Source: Roseitalea porphyridii
Lineage (GTDB): Bacteria > Pseudomonadota > Alphaproteobacteria > Rhizobiales > Rhizobiaceae
DNA: 64,000 nt
Reading direction: 5' to 3'
Assembly: GCF_004331955.1 (NCBI RefSeq)
Contig: NZ_CP036532.1
Location: 2,542,001 to 2,606,000, forward strand
A program made the translations under genes and the position numbers. The notes beneath the pieces were generated by a model. The model was not told where the DNA came from. It made no database searches and worked only from the letters and a program-made list of their open reading frames with translations. Below are positions 30,247 through 37,008 of the stretch, one piece after another. The stretch's first letter is position 1; each line of letters starts with the position of its first letter.

Positions 30247-31042
30247 CGTGTCGCTCCTGCCTGGGGCGCCCGAAGGCCGCCCGCTCGATCGTGCCCGCAA
30301 GCGGGCGGTGGGGATCAGGCGAGGGAACGCGGCGGCGAATAGCCGATGCGCGCGCACAGCATCAGAAGGTCGAAATGGCGTGTGTGCGAGGTTTCAAGAA
30401 CGCGCATGCGCCGAAGATAGCGGCGCGGCGCGAAGGGCGCAATGCGGGCGCGCGTGATCGTCGCCGCGCCCGAAACCGGGCCGGGGCATGCAAGGCCGGA
30501 ACGACGGGCGGTCACCGGATCGCGCATCGCAGAGTGTAGGTGCGGTCCGATGACCGCCCGTCCGGCGGGCTTGCGGTGATCGCCGTGCGCGGCGCCGGCC
30601 AGCGATGGCCGCTCACCCGGACGCGTTGGGACACCTTCATCTGCCGCGCGGCATGGCCGCCGCGCCGAATCTCGGCCGCATCCGGTCGGACGCCCCCGTC
30701 ACGGCACCGGCTGGCCATCGCCGGCGCCGCAAGGGCGGCACGCCCCGCACCTTCATTCCGCCCTGCCGTGGGGATTCAGCATCCAGCGCCGCACTTCTGC
30801 GACACCCGGCAGGCCACCGTCCCCTTCCCCGGATGATCGGCAAACGACCCGAGGTCCCGCGAAAGGGATGGGAAGGAGGATAAAGGAGGATTGGGGCTGG
30901 GGGATAAGTTGTGGGCGCTTTCGGCCCATACCGGCGGTTCGTTTTGTTGGATAAGCCAGTCTACAGAGACGCCCTCGAGATTGAGGCCGACTGGACCGGG
31001 ATGATCGCTTATGCGAGACGTGGGGAAAAAAGGGGTTCGGGA
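30247..31042. other. Gene-poor stretch at the left border of the low-GC island
   Basis: No convincing gene. Only short GC-driven open frames with no family match are present; one minus-strand frame ends RHFDLLMLCARIGYSPPRSL but lacks a ribosome site. Base composition drops from about position 30860 onward, which I take as the left edge of the acquired segment. Confidence 0.5.
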
Positions 31043-32179
31043 ATGCCGACTGAACAGGAATTGGCGGATATCGGTCTGGACGTCGGCAAGACGACCAAAG
31101 TCCCTGTGCACTGGCTGGCCTTCGATCCAGAGAACCCGCGCTTCGTGCCCGGCAAAGAGCCCCAAGGCGTAAACCCAGTAGATGTGATTAGGAACCTTGT
31201 CCAGCAGGCGGAACTCGGCGAGTTACTTCAGTCGATCGCTCAGAACGGATACATCGGTATCGAGCCGATGATAGTCATGCATAAGGACGGCGCTCTTGTC
31301 GTTCTTGAGGGCAACCGGCGCCTCGCCGCAGTCCTCGCTCTCCGCGATCCGTCGATCGCTGCCGACGCCCGCATCGCCCTTCCCGATTTCATTGCGGACC
31401 GGGAGTCTCTTGAAATGATTAGCGTTCATCGCGTCACCGAGCGCGAGGACGCACAGGACATCATCGGGTTCAAGCACATCAATGGCCCTCGGCCTTGGGA
31501 CGCCTATGCGAAGGCGAGGTTCGCTGCCGCTTGGCTCAATCGCGAAAAGAAAAAAGGCAAGCACGGCATGACACTGCGTGAGATTGCGCAGCGTATGGGC
31601 GACAGGCACAACACGCTTCGTCGCATGGTTCTCGCTGTCGAAGTGCTCGAGCAGGCCCGAAGGCATAGCCTTTGGGAGATCGACGACAGGACGTCAAAGA
31701 AGTTCGCGTTCTCTCATCTCTACACCGGCCTCAGCTACCAGCAATTCGTCGACTTCCTTGAGTTGGTAACGGAGGACGAACGGGGCGATCCTCCGAAGGA
31801 CCCAGTTCCGCTCGACCGTCATGACAAGCTTGCTCGACTTCTGGGATGGTTGTTCGGCGACCGTAGGGAGGACGTAGAGCCAATCATCCAGACGCAGGCA
31901 AAGGACCTAAAACGGGTCCGCGATGTTTTGGGTAGCCCAAAGGCCACAATCGCACTCGAGACCGATCGAAATCTAGACGCGGCGTACGCGATCGCCGAAG
32001 TCAAGGGAGAGGCCCTCCGTAGAGGCGTGTATGCGGCGCGAGTGGGATTGCGCGAGGCTCTTGCCGATACGGGTTCTTATGACGCAGAAACCCACAAGGA
32101 TGTGCTCGACACGGCCTTGGAGGTTCGCTCGTCCGCACGCGCTCTAGTGGCGGCCATTGAGACGCCCGAGCGCGACTGA
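31043..32179 (+). CDS. ParB/sulfiredoxin-fold protein of a putative defence module
   Basis: 378 residues from the ATG preceded by AAGGGG. The N-terminal ParB-N/Srx domain is clear: VHWLAFDPENPRFVPG (residues about 22-37), an alpha segment VIRNLVQQAELGELLQSIAQNGY, then VLEGNRRLAAVLAL (about 87-100), the EGNRR box II. The middle has MTLREIAQRMGDRHNTLRRMVLAVEVL, an HTH as in ParB-family proteins. The C-terminal 150 residues are not recognised. Base composition is lower in GC than neighbours. It is coupled to the next gene (TGATG). Not a chromosome-segregation ParB: no ParA, and the architecture differs. Confidence 0.75.
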   Translation: MPTEQELADIGLDVGKTTKVPVHWLAFDPENPRFVPGKEPQGVNPVDVIRNLVQQAELGELLQSIAQNGYIGIEPMIVMHKDGALVVLEGNRRLAAVLALRDPSIAADARIALPDFIADRESLEMISVHRVTEREDAQDIIGFKHINGPRPWDAYAKARFAAAWLNREKKKGKHGMTLREIAQRMGDRHNTLRRMVLAVEVLEQARRHSLWEIDDRTSKKFAFSHLYTGLSYQQFVDFLELVTEDERGDPPKDPVPLDRHDKLARLLGWLFGDRREDVEPIIQTQAKDLKRVRDVLGSPKATIALETDRNLDAAYAIAEVKGEALRRGVYAARVGLREALADTGSYDAETHKDVLDTALEVRSSARALVAAIETPERD

Positions 32180-33153
32180 TGCGCTATGACGGCCCTGGGC
32201 CAAAGGCGCCTGCCACCGCCCAAGTGGATTATCTGGAGATGGAATCGTTCCTCGACCAATACGGCCGGGCCTCCGTCCTCGGCGTTATCGACGACGAAAA
32301 GCTCCAAACTGAAGAACCGGACGAAGACATTGTTGATGATGCAGTCCAAGAGAATGCTCGCGCCGTTGAGATAGAGAACGAAGTAAATGCCCGAAAGCAC
32401 GCCCTTGGCGCACACTATCCATTCGATCTCGATGCGACGGGAGATAATCTCGAGTATCAAACTGCAACCACTCCAGCGCAGAACACCTATGTGGCCTGCT
32501 TAATCTGCGCGTTCCTTCGAGTACACGGAACCCGGGGATGGGACAAAGACCTTCGCCATTTGGAACTAAGATTTACCAAGAGGGTATTCCAAACCGTGGG
32601 AACCCTTGTACTTGCCGCACAGGCCGGAAGAGGTGCAATCAGCCTTGGATGGCCTCGCCTCGTGAACGAACCGATTATTGCTGCTCTAAAGCGAGGTTGG
32701 CAGCGTGGAAGCACCATCGAACCCCATGAGACCCCGACTTGGCTCGCGCCGCCCGCCGATAAGGACGGCGGGATCGACGTGATCGGCTGGTCGGACTGGC
32801 CCTACGGGAGCCAGATCGCTGAAAGCATCATCCTCGGACAACTCGCGAGCGGCATGAATTGGGAGGGGAAGTCTGTCCGCGACTTCATCGACACATTCCG
32901 TCAAAGCTATGTTCGAACCTGGCCCGAGAACCGTACGATGGCGACAGTCATCCCGTTTCGCAGGACCAACGGCCCGAAAGCGGCCTCGCTTGACATCCGC
33001 CATGGTGCGGTCTTCGACAGGCTCAGCCTACCCACAAAAGTCGCGGAGGCCGAAGCTCTTGCGGCACAAGGCCGGGTGTTCGACGAGATCGAAAACGTCG
33101 ATTCAATCCGGCAATGGGTTGATGATTACCGAACGGCTGTACTCGCGCTTTAG
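32179..33153 (+). CDS. Unknown protein with PD-(D/E)XK nuclease-like features
   Basis: 324 residues, not matched to a named family. After an acidic N-terminus comes EIENEVNARKHALGAHYPFDL (E67/E69 in a helix, then YPF). Near the C-terminus is KDGGIDVIGW (D200) followed by ILGQLASGMNWEGKSV (Q221, K231). The order acidic helix, GGxDVIGW strand, Q...K strand is how many PD-(D/E)XK restriction-type nucleases read, though the Q-to-K spacing is not the plain QxK. The start overlaps the ParB-like stop by one base. The end overlaps the convergent methylase by 4 bp. The nuclease role is an inference. Confidence 0.6.
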   Translation: MRYDGPGPKAPATAQVDYLEMESFLDQYGRASVLGVIDDEKLQTEEPDEDIVDDAVQENARAVEIENEVNARKHALGAHYPFDLDATGDNLEYQTATTPAQNTYVACLICAFLRVHGTRGWDKDLRHLELRFTKRVFQTVGTLVLAAQAGRGAISLGWPRLVNEPIIAALKRGWQRGSTIEPHETPTWLAPPADKDGGIDVIGWSDWPYGSQIAESIILGQLASGMNWEGKSVRDFIDTFRQSYVRTWPENRTMATVIPFRRTNGPKAASLDIRHGAVFDRLSLPTKVAEAEALAAQGRVFDEIENVDSIRQWVDDYRTAVLAL

Positions 33154-34025
33154 GCAGCGCGGATTATCAGTTCGCGCGCTTTGCGGGTGCGTCGCAGGCT
33201 ATAGTTCACCTCCAGCTGTCGCATGTCGCAACCTTCGTAAAGCGTACGTACGAATGGATCGTCGTCGTAGGTCAAGACCCAATGAGGCAGGGCGCCCGAC
33301 CGCAGGAACTGCGCAAGCGCGCGATGCTGCGGCATGTCCATGGCATTGAGGTAAAGCTTTGAACCAGCCTCGATGTAGGGTGGATCAACGAAATAGAAAG
33401 AGACATCCGCCTTTCCCTGTGAGACCTCTCGACGAAGAAAGGCATCTGCTGGTTCACAGCTTGTCTCAATCTGCTCGCGGTGAGCCCCAATCCACGCAAT
33501 TCGACGGATCATGCTGTCAGCATAGTACCGAACATCGATCTTCCATTTGCCAGACTGGTCGAACCCGCCGATGGGGCCGGAGCCAAGGACAATACCTGCC
33601 GTACTTGTCCGGTTGAGAAAGTAGACTGCGAAACCTAGGTCAAAGTCGTACTCGTGCCCCGCTTCTTCGACCAGTTGCCGCATGCGACGCCAAGTTGCGA
33701 TCGTTGGATGAGTTTCCCGGATACTGGCGATGAAACGATCCGTTTCACGAACGATCGCGGTCCATGCCGAGTAGATGCGTATGTCGAAGTCGTTCAACGC
33801 GATACGCGCAACTGTTCCGTCTTTGAGCAAGTTGAGCGCTGCGCCGGCTCCGCCGCAGAACGGCTCGGCGTAGCGCCTTTCATCCCCCGTCAGCCTGGCT
33901 ACAGTCTCATTAGCCAGCAAACCCGTCAGGAACCCCTTTCCGCCCGGATACCGGAACGGTGAGGCAGATGCCTGCATATGCCGCCGGGGATAATCAGCTA
34001 AGCCTATGACGCTGTCGTCGCTCAT
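33150..34025 (-). CDS. D12-class N6-adenine DNA methyltransferase (Dam-like)
   Basis: 291 residues. SPFRYPGGKGFL (residues 22-33) and YAEPFCGGAGAALNLL (52-67) form the SAM site. FLNRTSTAGIVLG follows, and VDPPYIEAG (213-221) is catalytic motif IV DPPY. This order is the alpha-class (Dam/DpnM) arrangement. The start chosen follows GGGA; an internal ATG 16 codons later is also possible. Transcribed toward the ParB-nuclease pair and of the same lower GC. In this setting it is the likely modification partner; target sequence unknown. Confidence 0.88.
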   Translation of the reverse strand: MSDDSVIGLADYPRRHMQASASPFRYPGGKGFLTGLLANETVARLTGDERRYAEPFCGGAGAALNLLKDGTVARIALNDFDIRIYSAWTAIVRETDRFIASIRETHPTIATWRRMRQLVEEAGHEYDFDLGFAVYFLNRTSTAGIVLGSGPIGGFDQSGKWKIDVRYYADSMIRRIAWIGAHREQIETSCEPADAFLRREVSQGKADVSFYFVDPPYIEAGSKLYLNAMDMPQHRALAQFLRSGALPHWVLTYDDDPFVRTLYEGCDMRQLEVNYSLRRTRKARELIIRAA

Positions 34026-34388
34026 TAATCCCAGAATCGTTTTTTTTTGCGCGAGACGCAACCGGGTCGATGCTCGTTTCTGGCAGGTCTTGTGACTTGT
34101 CGCGCCACCGCGTAAGTCGGCTTCCCGCCCAAACCGGGCTTTCTACCTGCCCTTTGGTATAGTCTCAGCCGCTCGACTGAATCTGCACGCCATCACGGCG
34201 ACTTACATGCGCGCTGGCCGGATCAGCTGGAATGGATCCCTGTGACGAGCACAGGGATGACGGCGCCGGGGAGGTCGCCGTGGCCGGGAGGCGCTTTCCC
34301 CCCCTCACCCCATCTTCCACACCTCGTCGTGGATGATCCGTCCCATCTTTCGCCGTGCGCCTGTCTCCCTGGCTGAGCCGGGTTCGTT
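34026..34388. other. Intergenic stretch at the right border of the island
   Basis: No gene seen. It contains the Dam promoter region (poly-T run TTTTTTTT on the plus strand near 34040), a weak GCCC..GGGC hairpin at 34127-34139, and a dispersed repeat further right. GC rises again after about 34150. Confidence 0.5.
34172..34262. repeat. Dispersed repeat with ATCCCTGTG / CACAGGGAT hairpin
   Basis: GCACGCCATCACGGCGACTT and TGGCCGGATCAGCTGGAATG precede a hairpin ATCCCTGTG-ACGAG-CACAGGGAT (34236-34258). I recognise this as a common intergenic repeat of Rhizobiales genomes (it reads as IPVLVTGIHSS-like peptides). Limits approximate. Confidence 0.6.
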
Positions 34389-35984
34389 TCAGCCGAAGGC
34401 GTCGGGCATCGAATCCTTCCTGCGCAGCATGAAAACCTGCAGCGCCTCGTCGATGGCCGGGTCCAGCGCCGGCGCCTCGTAGGCGCCAAGCCAGTCGCGG
34501 CACAGCCGGTTGGCCCGCTCCTCGACGCGTTTGCCGCCCTCGGCCAGCCACTGCTCGAACGAATTGTTGTCGGCAACCGTCGACCGGTAGAAGGCGGTCT
34601 GGAAGTTCTTCTGGGTGTGCGTGCAGCCCAGATAATGGCTGCCCGGGCCGACCTCGGCGATCGCGTCCATCGCCTGGCCGTTTTCGGAAAGGTCGATCCC
34701 CTGGCTCATCGCCTGCATCATGGCGAGCTGGTCGCAGTCGATCATGAACTTGTCGAACGAGGCGACGAGCCCGCCCTCCAGCCAGCCGGCCGAATGCAGC
34801 GCGAAATTGGTGCCCGCCAGCAGCGTCATGTTCAGCGTGTTGGCGCTCTCGTGGGCGGCCTGCGCGTCGGGCATCTTCGACCCGCACAGCGACCCGCCGG
34901 TGCGGAACGGAAGGCCGAGGCGCCGTGCGAGCTGCGCGGCGCCATAGGAGACGAGCGACGGCTCGGGCGTTCCGAAGGTGGGCGCGCCCGACTGCATCGA
35001 GATCGAGGCGGCGAAGGTGCCGAACAGCACCGGCGCGCCGGGCCGGCAGAGCTGGGTGAACGCGGCACCGGCCATCACCTCGGCGAGGATCTGCGCCAGC
35101 GTGCCGGCGACGGTGACCGGGCTCATCGCGCCGGACAGGATGAACGGCGAGATGATGCAGGCCTGGTTGGCCCGCGCATAGACCTTGGCCGCGCCGAGCA
35201 TGGTGCCGTCGAACACCATCGGCGAGTTGGCGTTGATCAGGTTGATCAGCACGCAGTTCTCGTCGACGAACTGATCGCCGAAGACGAGCCTGGCCATGGC
35301 GACCGAATCCTCGGCCCGCTCGGGCGCGGTGACCGAGCCCATGAACGGCTTGTCGGAATAGCGGATGTGCGAATAGACCATGTCCAGATGGCGCTTGTTG
35401 ACCGGCACGTCGACCGGCTCGCAGATCGTGCCGCCCGAATGGTGCATGGCCGGCGCCATGTAGGCGAGTTTGACGAGGTTGCGGAAATCCTCGATCGTCG
35501 CATAGCGGCGCTCGCCGTCGAGCCCGCGCACGAAGGGCGGCCCGTAGACCGGCGCGAACACGGTCGCGTCGCCCCCGATCTGCACCGATCTGGCCGGGTT
35601 GCGCGCATGCTGGGTGAAGACCGACGGCGCGGTCTCGAGCAATTGCCGGCACAGGCCCTTGGGAAAGCGCACGCGCTCGCCCTTGACGTCCGCGCCCGCC
35701 TTTTCCCACAGGTCGAGCGCCTCCTCGTCCTCGCGGAACTCGATGCCGATCTCCTGCAGGATGTGCTCGGCATTGGCCTCGATCAGCGCCAGGCCCTCCT
35801 CGCCGAGCACCTCGTAGAGCGGGATCTTGCGGGTGATGTAGGTCAGCTGCGGGCCGGCCGCGGTGCCCGAGCGCGCCGCCCGGCGGGCCGCGGCCCCTCC
35901 GCTGGCGCGCCGGCCGCGCCGTCCGCCCGTCTCCTCGCCCGCATCGTCCGCCCTTTGTCCGGCGGCCGAAAGATCCTGTTCCAT
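34389..35984 (-). CDS. MttB-family (non-pyrrolysine) methylamine:corrinoid methyltransferase
   Basis: 531 residues. Conserved blocks: YEVLGEEGLALIEANAEHIL, FTQHARNPARSVQIGG, FAPVYGPPFVRGLDG, HHSGGTICEPVD, MGSVTAPERAEDS, LINLINANSPMVFD, SGAPTFGTPEPSLV and GSHYLGCTHTQKNF. The frame is read through without UAG, so it is the MtgB-like type; relatives demethylate glycine betaine, proline betaine or carnitine onto a corrinoid protein. The start chosen is MEQDLSAAGQ; the first 45 residues are Arg/Gly/Ala-rich, as in alphaproteobacterial relatives. Divergent from the corrinoid protein gene. Substrate is inferred, not shown. Confidence 0.85.
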   Translation of the reverse strand: MEQDLSAAGQRADDAGEETGGRRGRRASGGAAARRAARSGTAAGPQLTYITRKIPLYEVLGEEGLALIEANAEHILQEIGIEFREDEEALDLWEKAGADVKGERVRFPKGLCRQLLETAPSVFTQHARNPARSVQIGGDATVFAPVYGPPFVRGLDGERRYATIEDFRNLVKLAYMAPAMHHSGGTICEPVDVPVNKRHLDMVYSHIRYSDKPFMGSVTAPERAEDSVAMARLVFGDQFVDENCVLINLINANSPMVFDGTMLGAAKVYARANQACIISPFILSGAMSPVTVAGTLAQILAEVMAGAAFTQLCRPGAPVLFGTFAASISMQSGAPTFGTPEPSLVSYGAAQLARRLGLPFRTGGSLCGSKMPDAQAAHESANTLNMTLLAGTNFALHSAGWLEGGLVASFDKFMIDCDQLAMMQAMSQGIDLSENGQAMDAIAEVGPGSHYLGCTHTQKNFQTAFYRSTVADNNSFEQWLAEGGKRVEERANRLCRDWLGAYEAPALDPAIDEALQVFMLRRKDSMPDAFG

Positions 35985-36137
35985 GGTCGTCTCCGCATGC
36001 GCGAAAGGCGCGGGGGACTCCGCGCTGTCGGGGCGAGTGTCGCGCGGCGCCGGCCGGCCCACATTGCCGACAACGCCCTTGGCTTGCGCCGGTGCGACAC
36101 GCAAGCGCGACGCGGGTCTTGCCATGCGGCGGGATAA

Positions 36138-36160
36138 GGATATAAGGATGTCGTTATGTG
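36138..36160. promoter_or_regulatory. Near-palindromic operator candidate between mttB-like and corrinoid genes
   Basis: GATATAAGGATGTCGTTATG, an imperfect dyad centred on GATGTC, in the 322-bp divergent gap. The reverse complement shares ATAA.GACATCC..ATATCC with a site before the methyltetrahydrofolate methyltransferase gene. The rest of the gap shows no other feature. Binding protein unknown; methionine/SAH-type regulators are a possibility. Confidence 0.45.
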
Positions 36161-36306
36161 ATCAATGGCGTGATCTGCGGATCGCCGGGCGGGCCGCGGC
36201 CGGATTTTGTCGTATTCAATTCAGCGCAGGTCGCACCCATCTTACTTGGCGCACATTGTTCGCGCATAGAATTGGCCTTTGAATCAAGCCGGTTGGGAGA
36301 CCGCAC

Positions 36307-37008
36307 ATGGCGGACGAAGAAGACATCATCCTGTCGGAGCTGGCGGACGACGAACTCGTCCAGCAGATGCATGACGACCTTTACGACGGCCTCAAGGAGG
36401 AGATCGTCGAGGCCACGCAGATCCTGCTCGATCGCGGCTGGGCGCCCTACGACGTTCTGACCAAGGCGCTGGTCGAGGGCATGCGCATCGTCGGCGAGGA
36501 TTTCCGCGACGGCATCCTGTTCGTGCCCGAGGTGCTCCTGTCGGCCAACGCGATGAAGGCGGGCATGAACATCCTGCGCCCGCTGCTCGCCGAGACCGGC
36601 GCGCCGAAGCTGGGCAAGATGGTGATCGGCACCGTCAAGGGCGACATCCACGACATCGGCAAGAACCTCGTCGGCATGATGATGGAGGGCGCCGGCTTCG
36701 ACGTGGTCGATCTGGGCATCAACAACCCGGTCGAGAACTATCTGGAGGCGCTCGAGAAGGAGCAGCCCGACATTCTGGGCATGAGCGCGCTTCTGACCAC
36801 CACCATGCCCTACATGAAGGTCGTCATCGACACGATGAAGGAAAAGGGCATCCGCGACGACTTCGTCGTCCTGGTCGGCGGCGCCCCGCTCAACGAGGAG
36901 TTCGGCCAGGCGATCGGCGCGGACGCCTATTGCCGCGACGCGGCCGTGGCCGTCGAGACCGCAAAGCTGTTCATGAAGCGCCGCCACAACCAGGTCGAGC
37001 ACGCCTGA
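36307..37008 (+). CDS. Corrinoid methyl-carrier protein (MtgC/MtbC type)
   Basis: 233 residues. N-terminal four-helix cap (LYDGLKEEIVEATQILLDRGW, VGEDFRDGILFVPEVLLSANAMKAGM). The Rossmann B12-binding domain carries GTVKGDIHDIGKNLV; His115 of DxHxxG is the lower axial ligand of the cobamide. Also DLGINNPVENYLEALE and SALLTTTMPYMKVVI, as in the MtbC/MtgC family. Accepts methyl from the divergent MttB-like enzyme and hands it to tetrahydrofolate through the methyltransferase 5 kb downstream. It could also serve as the B12 module of a split methionine synthase. Confidence 0.93.
   Translation: MADEEDIILSELADDELVQQMHDDLYDGLKEEIVEATQILLDRGWAPYDVLTKALVEGMRIVGEDFRDGILFVPEVLLSANAMKAGMNILRPLLAETGAPKLGKMVIGTVKGDIHDIGKNLVGMMMEGAGFDVVDLGINNPVENYLEALEKEQPDILGMSALLTTTMPYMKVVIDTMKEKGIRDDFVVLVGGAPLNEEFGQAIGADAYCRDAAVAVETAKLFMKRRHNQVEHA

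Follow-up and report, generated by a model that had tools for sequence, protein, structure and literature searches.

The stretch of DNA analyzed here (the window, 64,000 nucleotides of Roseitalea porphyridii, contig NZ_CP036532.1, positions 2,542,001 to 2,606,000) carries at 31043-34025 a compact module of three genes, which probably functions in defense against foreign DNA. Gene 1 (31043-32179, + strand, 378 amino acids) codes for a predicted ParB/Noc/KorB-like protein with a GNRR motif (the GxxR of Box II) at residues 90-93, a helix-turn-helix (HTH) at about 152-210 and a long helical C-terminus; gene 2 (32179-33153, + strand, 324 amino acids) for a probable PD-(D/E)XK-type nuclease of an unnamed family, marked by D196/D200, Q221 and K231; and gene 3 (33150-34025, − strand, 291 amino acids from its ATG, with the open frame extending beyond it to a TTG at 34061) for what by its sequence is a D12-class N6-adenine DNA methylase. 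Genes 1 and 2 have the bases TGATG in common at their junction, a sign of coupling, and gene 3 is convergent with gene 2 and overlaps it by 4 bp. The module has a guanine-plus-cytosine content of 0.579, as against 0.678 in the window outside the insert described below, and none of 1,098 segments of equal length taken there (step 50) reaches so low a value, their minimum being 0.647. The compactness, the low guanine-plus-cytosine content, the coupling and the overlap had all been noticed in a first-pass annotation made from the letters of the window, and coordinates and composition confirm each of them. No tRNA gene was found within the window.

Gene 3 matches the Pfam family MethyltransfD12 (PF02086) with an E-value of 2e-10 and displays the motifs FRYPGGK and DPPY, which upholds its initial assignment to the D12 methylases; we likewise take it to be an adenine methylase on the strength of its sequence. 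The only solved structure recovered for it by sequence is 7m6b, an adenine-specific methyltransferase (1.4e-13). Its best PADLOC model is PD-Lambda-5_B (6.5e-81, profile positions 1-269 of 291), followed by a type II methylase model (1.9e-52), and it is the sole match to PF02086 in its own genome at E<=0.001.

The first-pass annotation had further read gene 1 as a ParB N-domain joined to an HTH, and the structural prediction agrees. The Pfam ParB_N profile remains below its cut-off on this protein (12.8 versus 26.3 bits). An AlphaFold2 model computed from an alignment of 110 sequences (mean predicted local distance difference test, pLDDT, of 93.5) retrieves by Foldseek 17 Protein Data Bank (PDB) entries at E<=0.001, every one of them a ParB, Noc or KorB and several with nucleotide or DNA bound; the template-modeling (TM) scores are modest, 0.18-0.53 across 229-298 alignment columns. 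G90, N91, R92 and R93 are present in all 110 sequences, as are H145, W152 and K157. Gene 1 is thus predicted to have the architecture of the CTP-dependent DNA clamps ParB, Noc and KorB, with which it shares the N-domain, the HTH and the constant GxxR nucleotide motif; it differs from them in its long helical C-terminal part and in its partners, a probable nuclease and a methylase. Because of this predicted fold, we infer that it might act as a nucleotide-gated clamp. Excerpts from a study of ParB-CTPase fold proteins report that nucleotide binding was lost in the tested binders once the GxxR arginine was changed, and state that the nucleotide bound by such proteins is not yet reliably predictable from sequence or models (PMC12704722).

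Gene 2 is of a more elusive kind: none of 116 of its sequences has a Pfam match below E 0.03, the scattered weak matches having no common theme, and the window's own copy retrieves nothing in NCBIfam or PADLOC. It does match PHROG 14650, to which no function is assigned, with an E-value of 5.6e-19. Its relatives nevertheless share a constellation of residues, with E20, R72, P81, Y104, D196, D200, K231 and R281 constant in 116/116 sequences and D17 and Q221 each present in 115/116. The conserved D, (D/E/Q) and K of PD-(D/E)XK enzymes thereby find counterparts in D200, Q221 and K231, the three residues singled out at the outset and correctly numbered then; the motif GGIDVIGW starts at residue 197 and GQLASGMNWEGK at residue 220. 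A helix first described by its E67/E69 instead carries E64, E66 and E68, which are not conserved (E66 in 21/116, E68 in 42/116), the constant glutamate being E20. In the structural model (mean pLDDT 93.8, predicted TM-score 0.92), DSSP places a helix at 166-175, a short strand at 181-182, strands at 201-204 and 216-222, a helix at 237-244 and a strand at 251-257. The elements after residue 160 hence follow the alpha-beta-beta-beta-alpha-beta order of the PD-(D/E)XK fold, in a model whose fold matches are weak, with D200 immediately before one strand and Q221 within the next. Among PDB entries the foremost Foldseek match is MspJI (E 2e-3), with AspBHI in sixth place (E 0.26); against viral models a phage 'restriction endonuclease' comes first (E 8e-3) and an Mrr-type protein third. 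Thus, gene 2 has MspJI and Mrr-like restriction enzymes among its best structural matches and the conserved D, Q and K in common with them; it differs in the displaced lysine and the weak scores, and no sequence relation to them was found. The PD-(D/E)XK core proposed initially is probable: element order and conserved residues fit it, and the fold matches are weak, none being at E<=0.001. In our reading gene 2 probably encodes a PD-(D/E)XK nuclease whose lysine is displaced, from a family without a name.

To delineate the distribution of the module, the gene 1 alignment was used as the query; 538 stretches with gene 1 relatives were found in 84,980 species genomes, some of which may be PD-lambda-5_A-like proteins, and the best 80 of these were kept together with the best 80 of 149 relatives on viral contigs, a survey that favors close relatives, the best-ranked matches having been kept. 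Plasmid and phage loci were added, and from the resulting 169 loci we set aside the window itself (L001), two copies of L034 (L008 and L009) and a locus with no gene 1 and with gene 2 in two frames (L005), leaving 165 for the counts (80 genome, 83 viral and 2 plasmid). Gene 2, counted when it shares the strand of gene 1 and lies no more than 1,500 bp from the latter's end, accompanies gene 1 in 157/165 loci, in 156 as a separate gene and in one as a fusion. The separate gene starts no more than 30 bp after gene 1 in 153 of the 156 and reaches at least 290 amino acids in 149, the others being shortened, some by a contig end. The fusion (L023, 4971-7094, a Brevundimonas genome) is a single 707-amino-acid frame with a convergent D12 methylase beside it. 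Among the eight loci without gene 2, four stop at a contig edge, and L072, L078, L081 and L089 lack it. Since 157 of the 165 loci found by gene 1 also hold gene 2, the neighborhood is more than chance, and by record titles it extends over several phyla as well as viral contigs.

A methylase adjoins genes 1 and 2 in 139/165 loci, counting frames of at least 150 amino acids that start within 150 bp after gene 2 or end within 150 bp of gene 1; the recurrence of all three genes in other genomes, which the first-pass annotation had named as a check, is thereby established. Methylases of three classes occur in this position: D12 in 56 loci (40 convergent, 12 downstream in the same direction, 4 upstream), 5-methylcytosine (m5C) in 47 (45 convergent, 2 in the same direction) and the N4/N6 type in 36 (35 downstream in the same direction, 1 upstream). 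The class of most loci was assigned with profiles grown from two seed proteins per class, and Pfam was consulted for seven methylases, the window's and six others. The viral loci include near-copies; at 85% gene 1 identity and with a length filter, 109 loci remain, 88 of them with an adjacent methylase. Otherwise, 7 loci stop at a contig edge and 11 have no methylase under the adjacency rule. Among these 11, L083 has an adjacent D12 frame nonetheless; in L031, L033 and L049 a PD-lambda-5_A-like gene is inserted ahead of a D12 gene; in L167 and L169 an m5C methylase lies at a greater distance; L045 has a shortened gene 2 and no methylase that we could see; and the other four are L029, L032, L055 and L074, described below. 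In L169 (6080-9216, a viral contig) other frames split gene 2 in two, and the m5C methylase lies past them. The excluded L005 (5950-6925, a Microvirga plasmid), with gene 2 in two overlapping frames, an adjoining open D12 frame and no gene 1 found, has the appearance of a decaying copy.

Judged by sequence comparison, gene 2 diverges faster than gene 1. Searches with single sequences confirmed no relatives of gene 2 in genome contigs or of gene 1 in viral contigs, where the alignment query succeeded; in phage records, tblastn found no gene 2 and found gene 1 in 15 records.

These counts bear on the possibility that restriction by genes 1 and 2 is modification-dependent, in the manner of type IV systems, the methylase being non-protective or serving another role. 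Both MspJI and AspBHI, which are among the best PDB folds for gene 2, are modification-dependent enzymes, and the type IV model GmrSD_N (PF03235) resembles one PD-lambda-5_A protein faintly and below threshold (E 0.046). However, the match to MspJI is weak, and a type IV pair does not need the methylases of three classes that adjoin genes 1 and 2 in 139/165 loci; we consider this explanation improbable.

The module is an insertion, as flank homology breaks at both of its ends and no match to it lies between the flanks in three congeners. By blastn against three congeners (L193-L195), homology stops on the left at window positions 30909-30941 and restarts on the right at 34114-34301, delimiting an inserted cargo at 30942-34113 between an aminotransferase gene and an mttB gene; between the flanks no match to module DNA was found in these three at E<=1e-5. 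The two flanking genes, identified by Pfam, are close neighbors on a single contig in three congeners and lie on two contigs in a fourth. In L193-L195 the slot holds other cargo, namely a 722-amino-acid protein with a sub-threshold match to an Mrr-type nuclease (Mrr_cat), a 417-amino-acid protein without a family and an MmyB-like regulator. A search for repeats at the insert revealed none that clearly mark its ends. Within the own genome of the window, gene 2 has one match, and a PD-lambda-5_A query, in a search run without a positive control, has none.

The setting of the window copy is pertinent to another explanation, under which the module would be a prophage or plasmid housekeeping unit, active in partition, regulation or superinfection control, with gene 2 not being a nuclease. 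The resemblance of gene 1 to partition proteins and the many copies in phages, prophages or viral contigs speak for it; against it, no parA-named neighbor lies beside gene 1 in the five annotated loci examined, the window copy is found by itself on the chromosome, in a slot flanked by metabolic genes that carries other cargo in congeners, and the association with methylases is left unexplained. We deem such a role doubtful at best.

The aminotransferase-mttB slot, with different accessory genes in each of the three congeners, is a small cargo hotspot. In the closest congener (L196, 4289-6717), whose left flank is 93% identical, there come after this flank, near a contig end, a 434-amino-acid protein with an HEIAH motif, which is typical of ImmA-like zinc proteases, and a 375-amino-acid protein. 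Beside the insertion, window positions 34389-37008 are taken up by ordinary metabolic genes, one for a methyltransferase of the MttB family (PF06253) and, divergent from it, one whose product has B12-binding domains.

The nearest named system, by sequence, is PD-lambda-5, which has been shown to protect against phages and which Vassallo et al. 2022, who worked on it with a deletion of the mrr region, term a compacted RM+Abi (restriction-modification and abortive infection) system (PMC9519451). Like the module, it combines a ParB-like protein with a DNA methylase, and sequence comparison marks the two as kin. Gene 3 matches component B across nearly the whole profile, whereas related loci with m5C or N4/N6 methylases lack B. 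PADLOC PD-Lambda-5_A matches gene 1 at residues 17-170 (profile 5-163 of 440, E 5.8e-20), that is, over its N-terminal, ParB-like part, the C-terminal half of A being absent from gene 1; by hhalign, the two are common over about 218 columns (99.8%). PD-lambda-5 comprises two components in PADLOC, A and B, as against the three genes found here, the conserved gene 2 having no PADLOC match, and besides D12 methylases the module's relatives also have m5C or N4/N6 ones. By composition, as read from these sequences, the module is hence not PD-lambda-5. The possibility that gene 2 is the detached C-terminus of PD-lambda-5_A was rejected (hhalign probability 0.3%), as was that of the PADLOC model PDC-M38A representing a fusion of genes 1 and 2, the true fusion of L023 matching it only over 54-345. 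The first-pass annotation had known of no named system with such a composition and had overlooked the kinship with the validated PD-lambda-5. Literature searches, covering open-licence papers and offering no proof of absence, found no paper describing the three-gene unit, which is apparently a widespread but unnamed three-gene relative of PD-lambda-5.

In eight loci (L020, L031, L033, L049, L073, L082, L085 and L088) a PD-lambda-5_A-like protein lies next to or near genes 1 and 2. Five of the eight proteins were scanned, and all clearly match PADLOC PD-Lambda-5_A models (best E 4e-42 to 2e-171); A at its full length is thus present next to related loci. Each of the eight loci has one D12 methylase, with no m5C or N4/N6 methylase found in the fetched stretch; in L073 the D12 gene stands between the A gene, which it overlaps, and gene 2, with which it is convergent. 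It is as if two effector arms had a single mark in common, and the module and PD-lambda-5 may indeed be able to have one methylase in common. These loci, along with the RM+Abi designation by Vassallo et al., lend some support to an abortive or toxin-like mode of defense as proposed for PD-lambda-5, in which loss of methylation or inhibition of the methylase would turn genes 1 and 2 upon the cell itself and the infected cell would die. Yet gene 2 bears no relation to the C-terminal part of PD-lambda-5_A, and an A-like protein was found in only eight loci (flanks of up to about 5 kb), as against 157/165 with both gene 1 and gene 2; we hold this mode to be rather unlikely.

The association of one gene pair with methylases of three classes raises the question of how often these were exchanged. 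On the gene 1 tree, of the 'quick' kind without bootstrap, at least 7 changes of class are needed among the three classes, as compared with an average of 41.9 for shuffled labels, and 5 are forced by well-supported branches with D12 and N4/N6 taken singly; a looser first labeling of the classes gave 10 changes and the stricter one 7. The divergence of gene 1 parallels that of gene 2 in all classes (rank correlations of 0.80 for D12, 0.88 for m5C and 0.90 for N4/N6), and that of the methylase follows gene 1 closely in N4/N6 (0.84) but loosely in the other two classes (0.34 and 0.46). Over 26 m5C loci the mean identity is 64% for the methylase, 36% for gene 1 and 28% for gene 2; in the D12 class the methylase, at 37% versus 40% for gene 1, is no more conserved. 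Given their linkage, the one fusion and the parallel divergence, genes 1 and 2 are the half of the module that stays together, and the methylase is the exchangeable half, whose class has been swapped repeatedly. This exchange had escaped the first-pass annotation.

A closely observable case is provided by Escherichia coli and its phages. The trio gp98/gp96/mth of phage Wphi and those of E. coli P2-like prophages reproduce the gene order, the convergence and the 4-bp overlap of gene 2 with the methylase; gp98 and gp96 belong to the same families as genes 1 and 2, and the methylase differs in being m5C (PF00145). Their annotation is limited to gp98/ParB-domain, gp96/hypothetical and methylase, and the literature and database searches made found no function for them. 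DNA like the Wphi trio occurs in 139 of 5,426 complete E. coli genomes, with 103 matches covering at least 80% of the query; by identity, 103 are at least 99% identical and 36 fall at 90-95%, the match being confined to the methylase in the three of these 36 that were listed. In two prophages examined, one for each sort of match, the full trio lies between the portal protein and replication endonuclease genes, an interval that excerpts of the PD-lambda-5 study describe as a P2 defense hotspot (PMC9519451). Between these two prophages the methylases are 98% identical over 312 residues, and gene 1 and gene 2 are only 33% and 27% identical.

Taken together, we consider it reasonably likely that the module is a three-component restriction-modification defense, in which the methylase marks self and genes 1 and 2 restrict unmarked DNA. 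Restriction-modification fits best because of the linkage to a methylase of any class together with a probable nuclease, and it is supported by the facts that the related PD-lambda-5 protects against phages and that the two E. coli prophage copies examined sit in the P2 defense hotspot. Briefly, gene 3 would methylate adenine at its target and thereby mark host DNA as self. Gene 1, with its nucleotide-binding motif and HTH, might bind DNA and act as a switch or a sliding clamp that licenses or delivers gene 2, which would in turn cut DNA without the mark by means of a center formed by D200, Q221 and K231. Genes 1 and 2 would accordingly make up the restriction half, and the methylase the exchangeable one; the module, on this analysis, probably restricts unmethylated DNA with a clamp of the ParB type. 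In a more specific version, which we offer tentatively as less likely than otherwise, gene 1 would load onto DNA, close with CTP or another nucleoside triphosphate, slide and activate the separate gene 2 nuclease unless prevented by methylation; the gene 1 and gene 2 half would be a fast-changing cassette over a constant mark, and the methylase could be replaced by one of another chemistry.

Several observations weigh against the restriction-modification interpretation. K231 of gene 2 is 10 residues past Q221, rather than the expected two. None of its structural matches reaches E<=0.001, their TM-scores by query length are about 0.2-0.3, the PDB matches between and after MspJI and AspBHI are unrelated proteins with E-values of at least 0.2, and many lower-ranked matches are to miscellaneous proteins. 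Further, genes 1 and 2 are open next to mere methylase remnants in L032, L055 and L074, the last with an intact D12 gene about 1.2 kb further on, and in L029 they are open with no methylase found beside them; these four loci without a whole adjoining methylase are few, and tell mildly against a strict dependence on methylation. Finally, two comparisons show the gene 1 HTH acting like a specificity part of neither the exchanged nor the preserved kind. Were it swapped along with the methylase, it should vary between methylase classes more than the rest of gene 1 does, which is not the case; were it conserved to recognize one target together with the methylase, it should be alike in the two prophages whose methylases are 98% identical, where it is only 32% identical. 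Therefore, these comparisons argue against the simple form in which the gene 1 HTH reads the methylase site; the reader of the methylation site may instead be gene 2 or the methylase itself.

If the restriction-modification interpretation is true, a common and apparently unnamed defense unit would be added to the annotation of bacteria and prophages, and restriction would join chromosome partition among the roles of the ParB fold. With the two E. coli prophages it can be tested directly whether a single methyl mark is respected by cutters as different as theirs, and whether counter-defense by phages drives the divergence of the restriction half.

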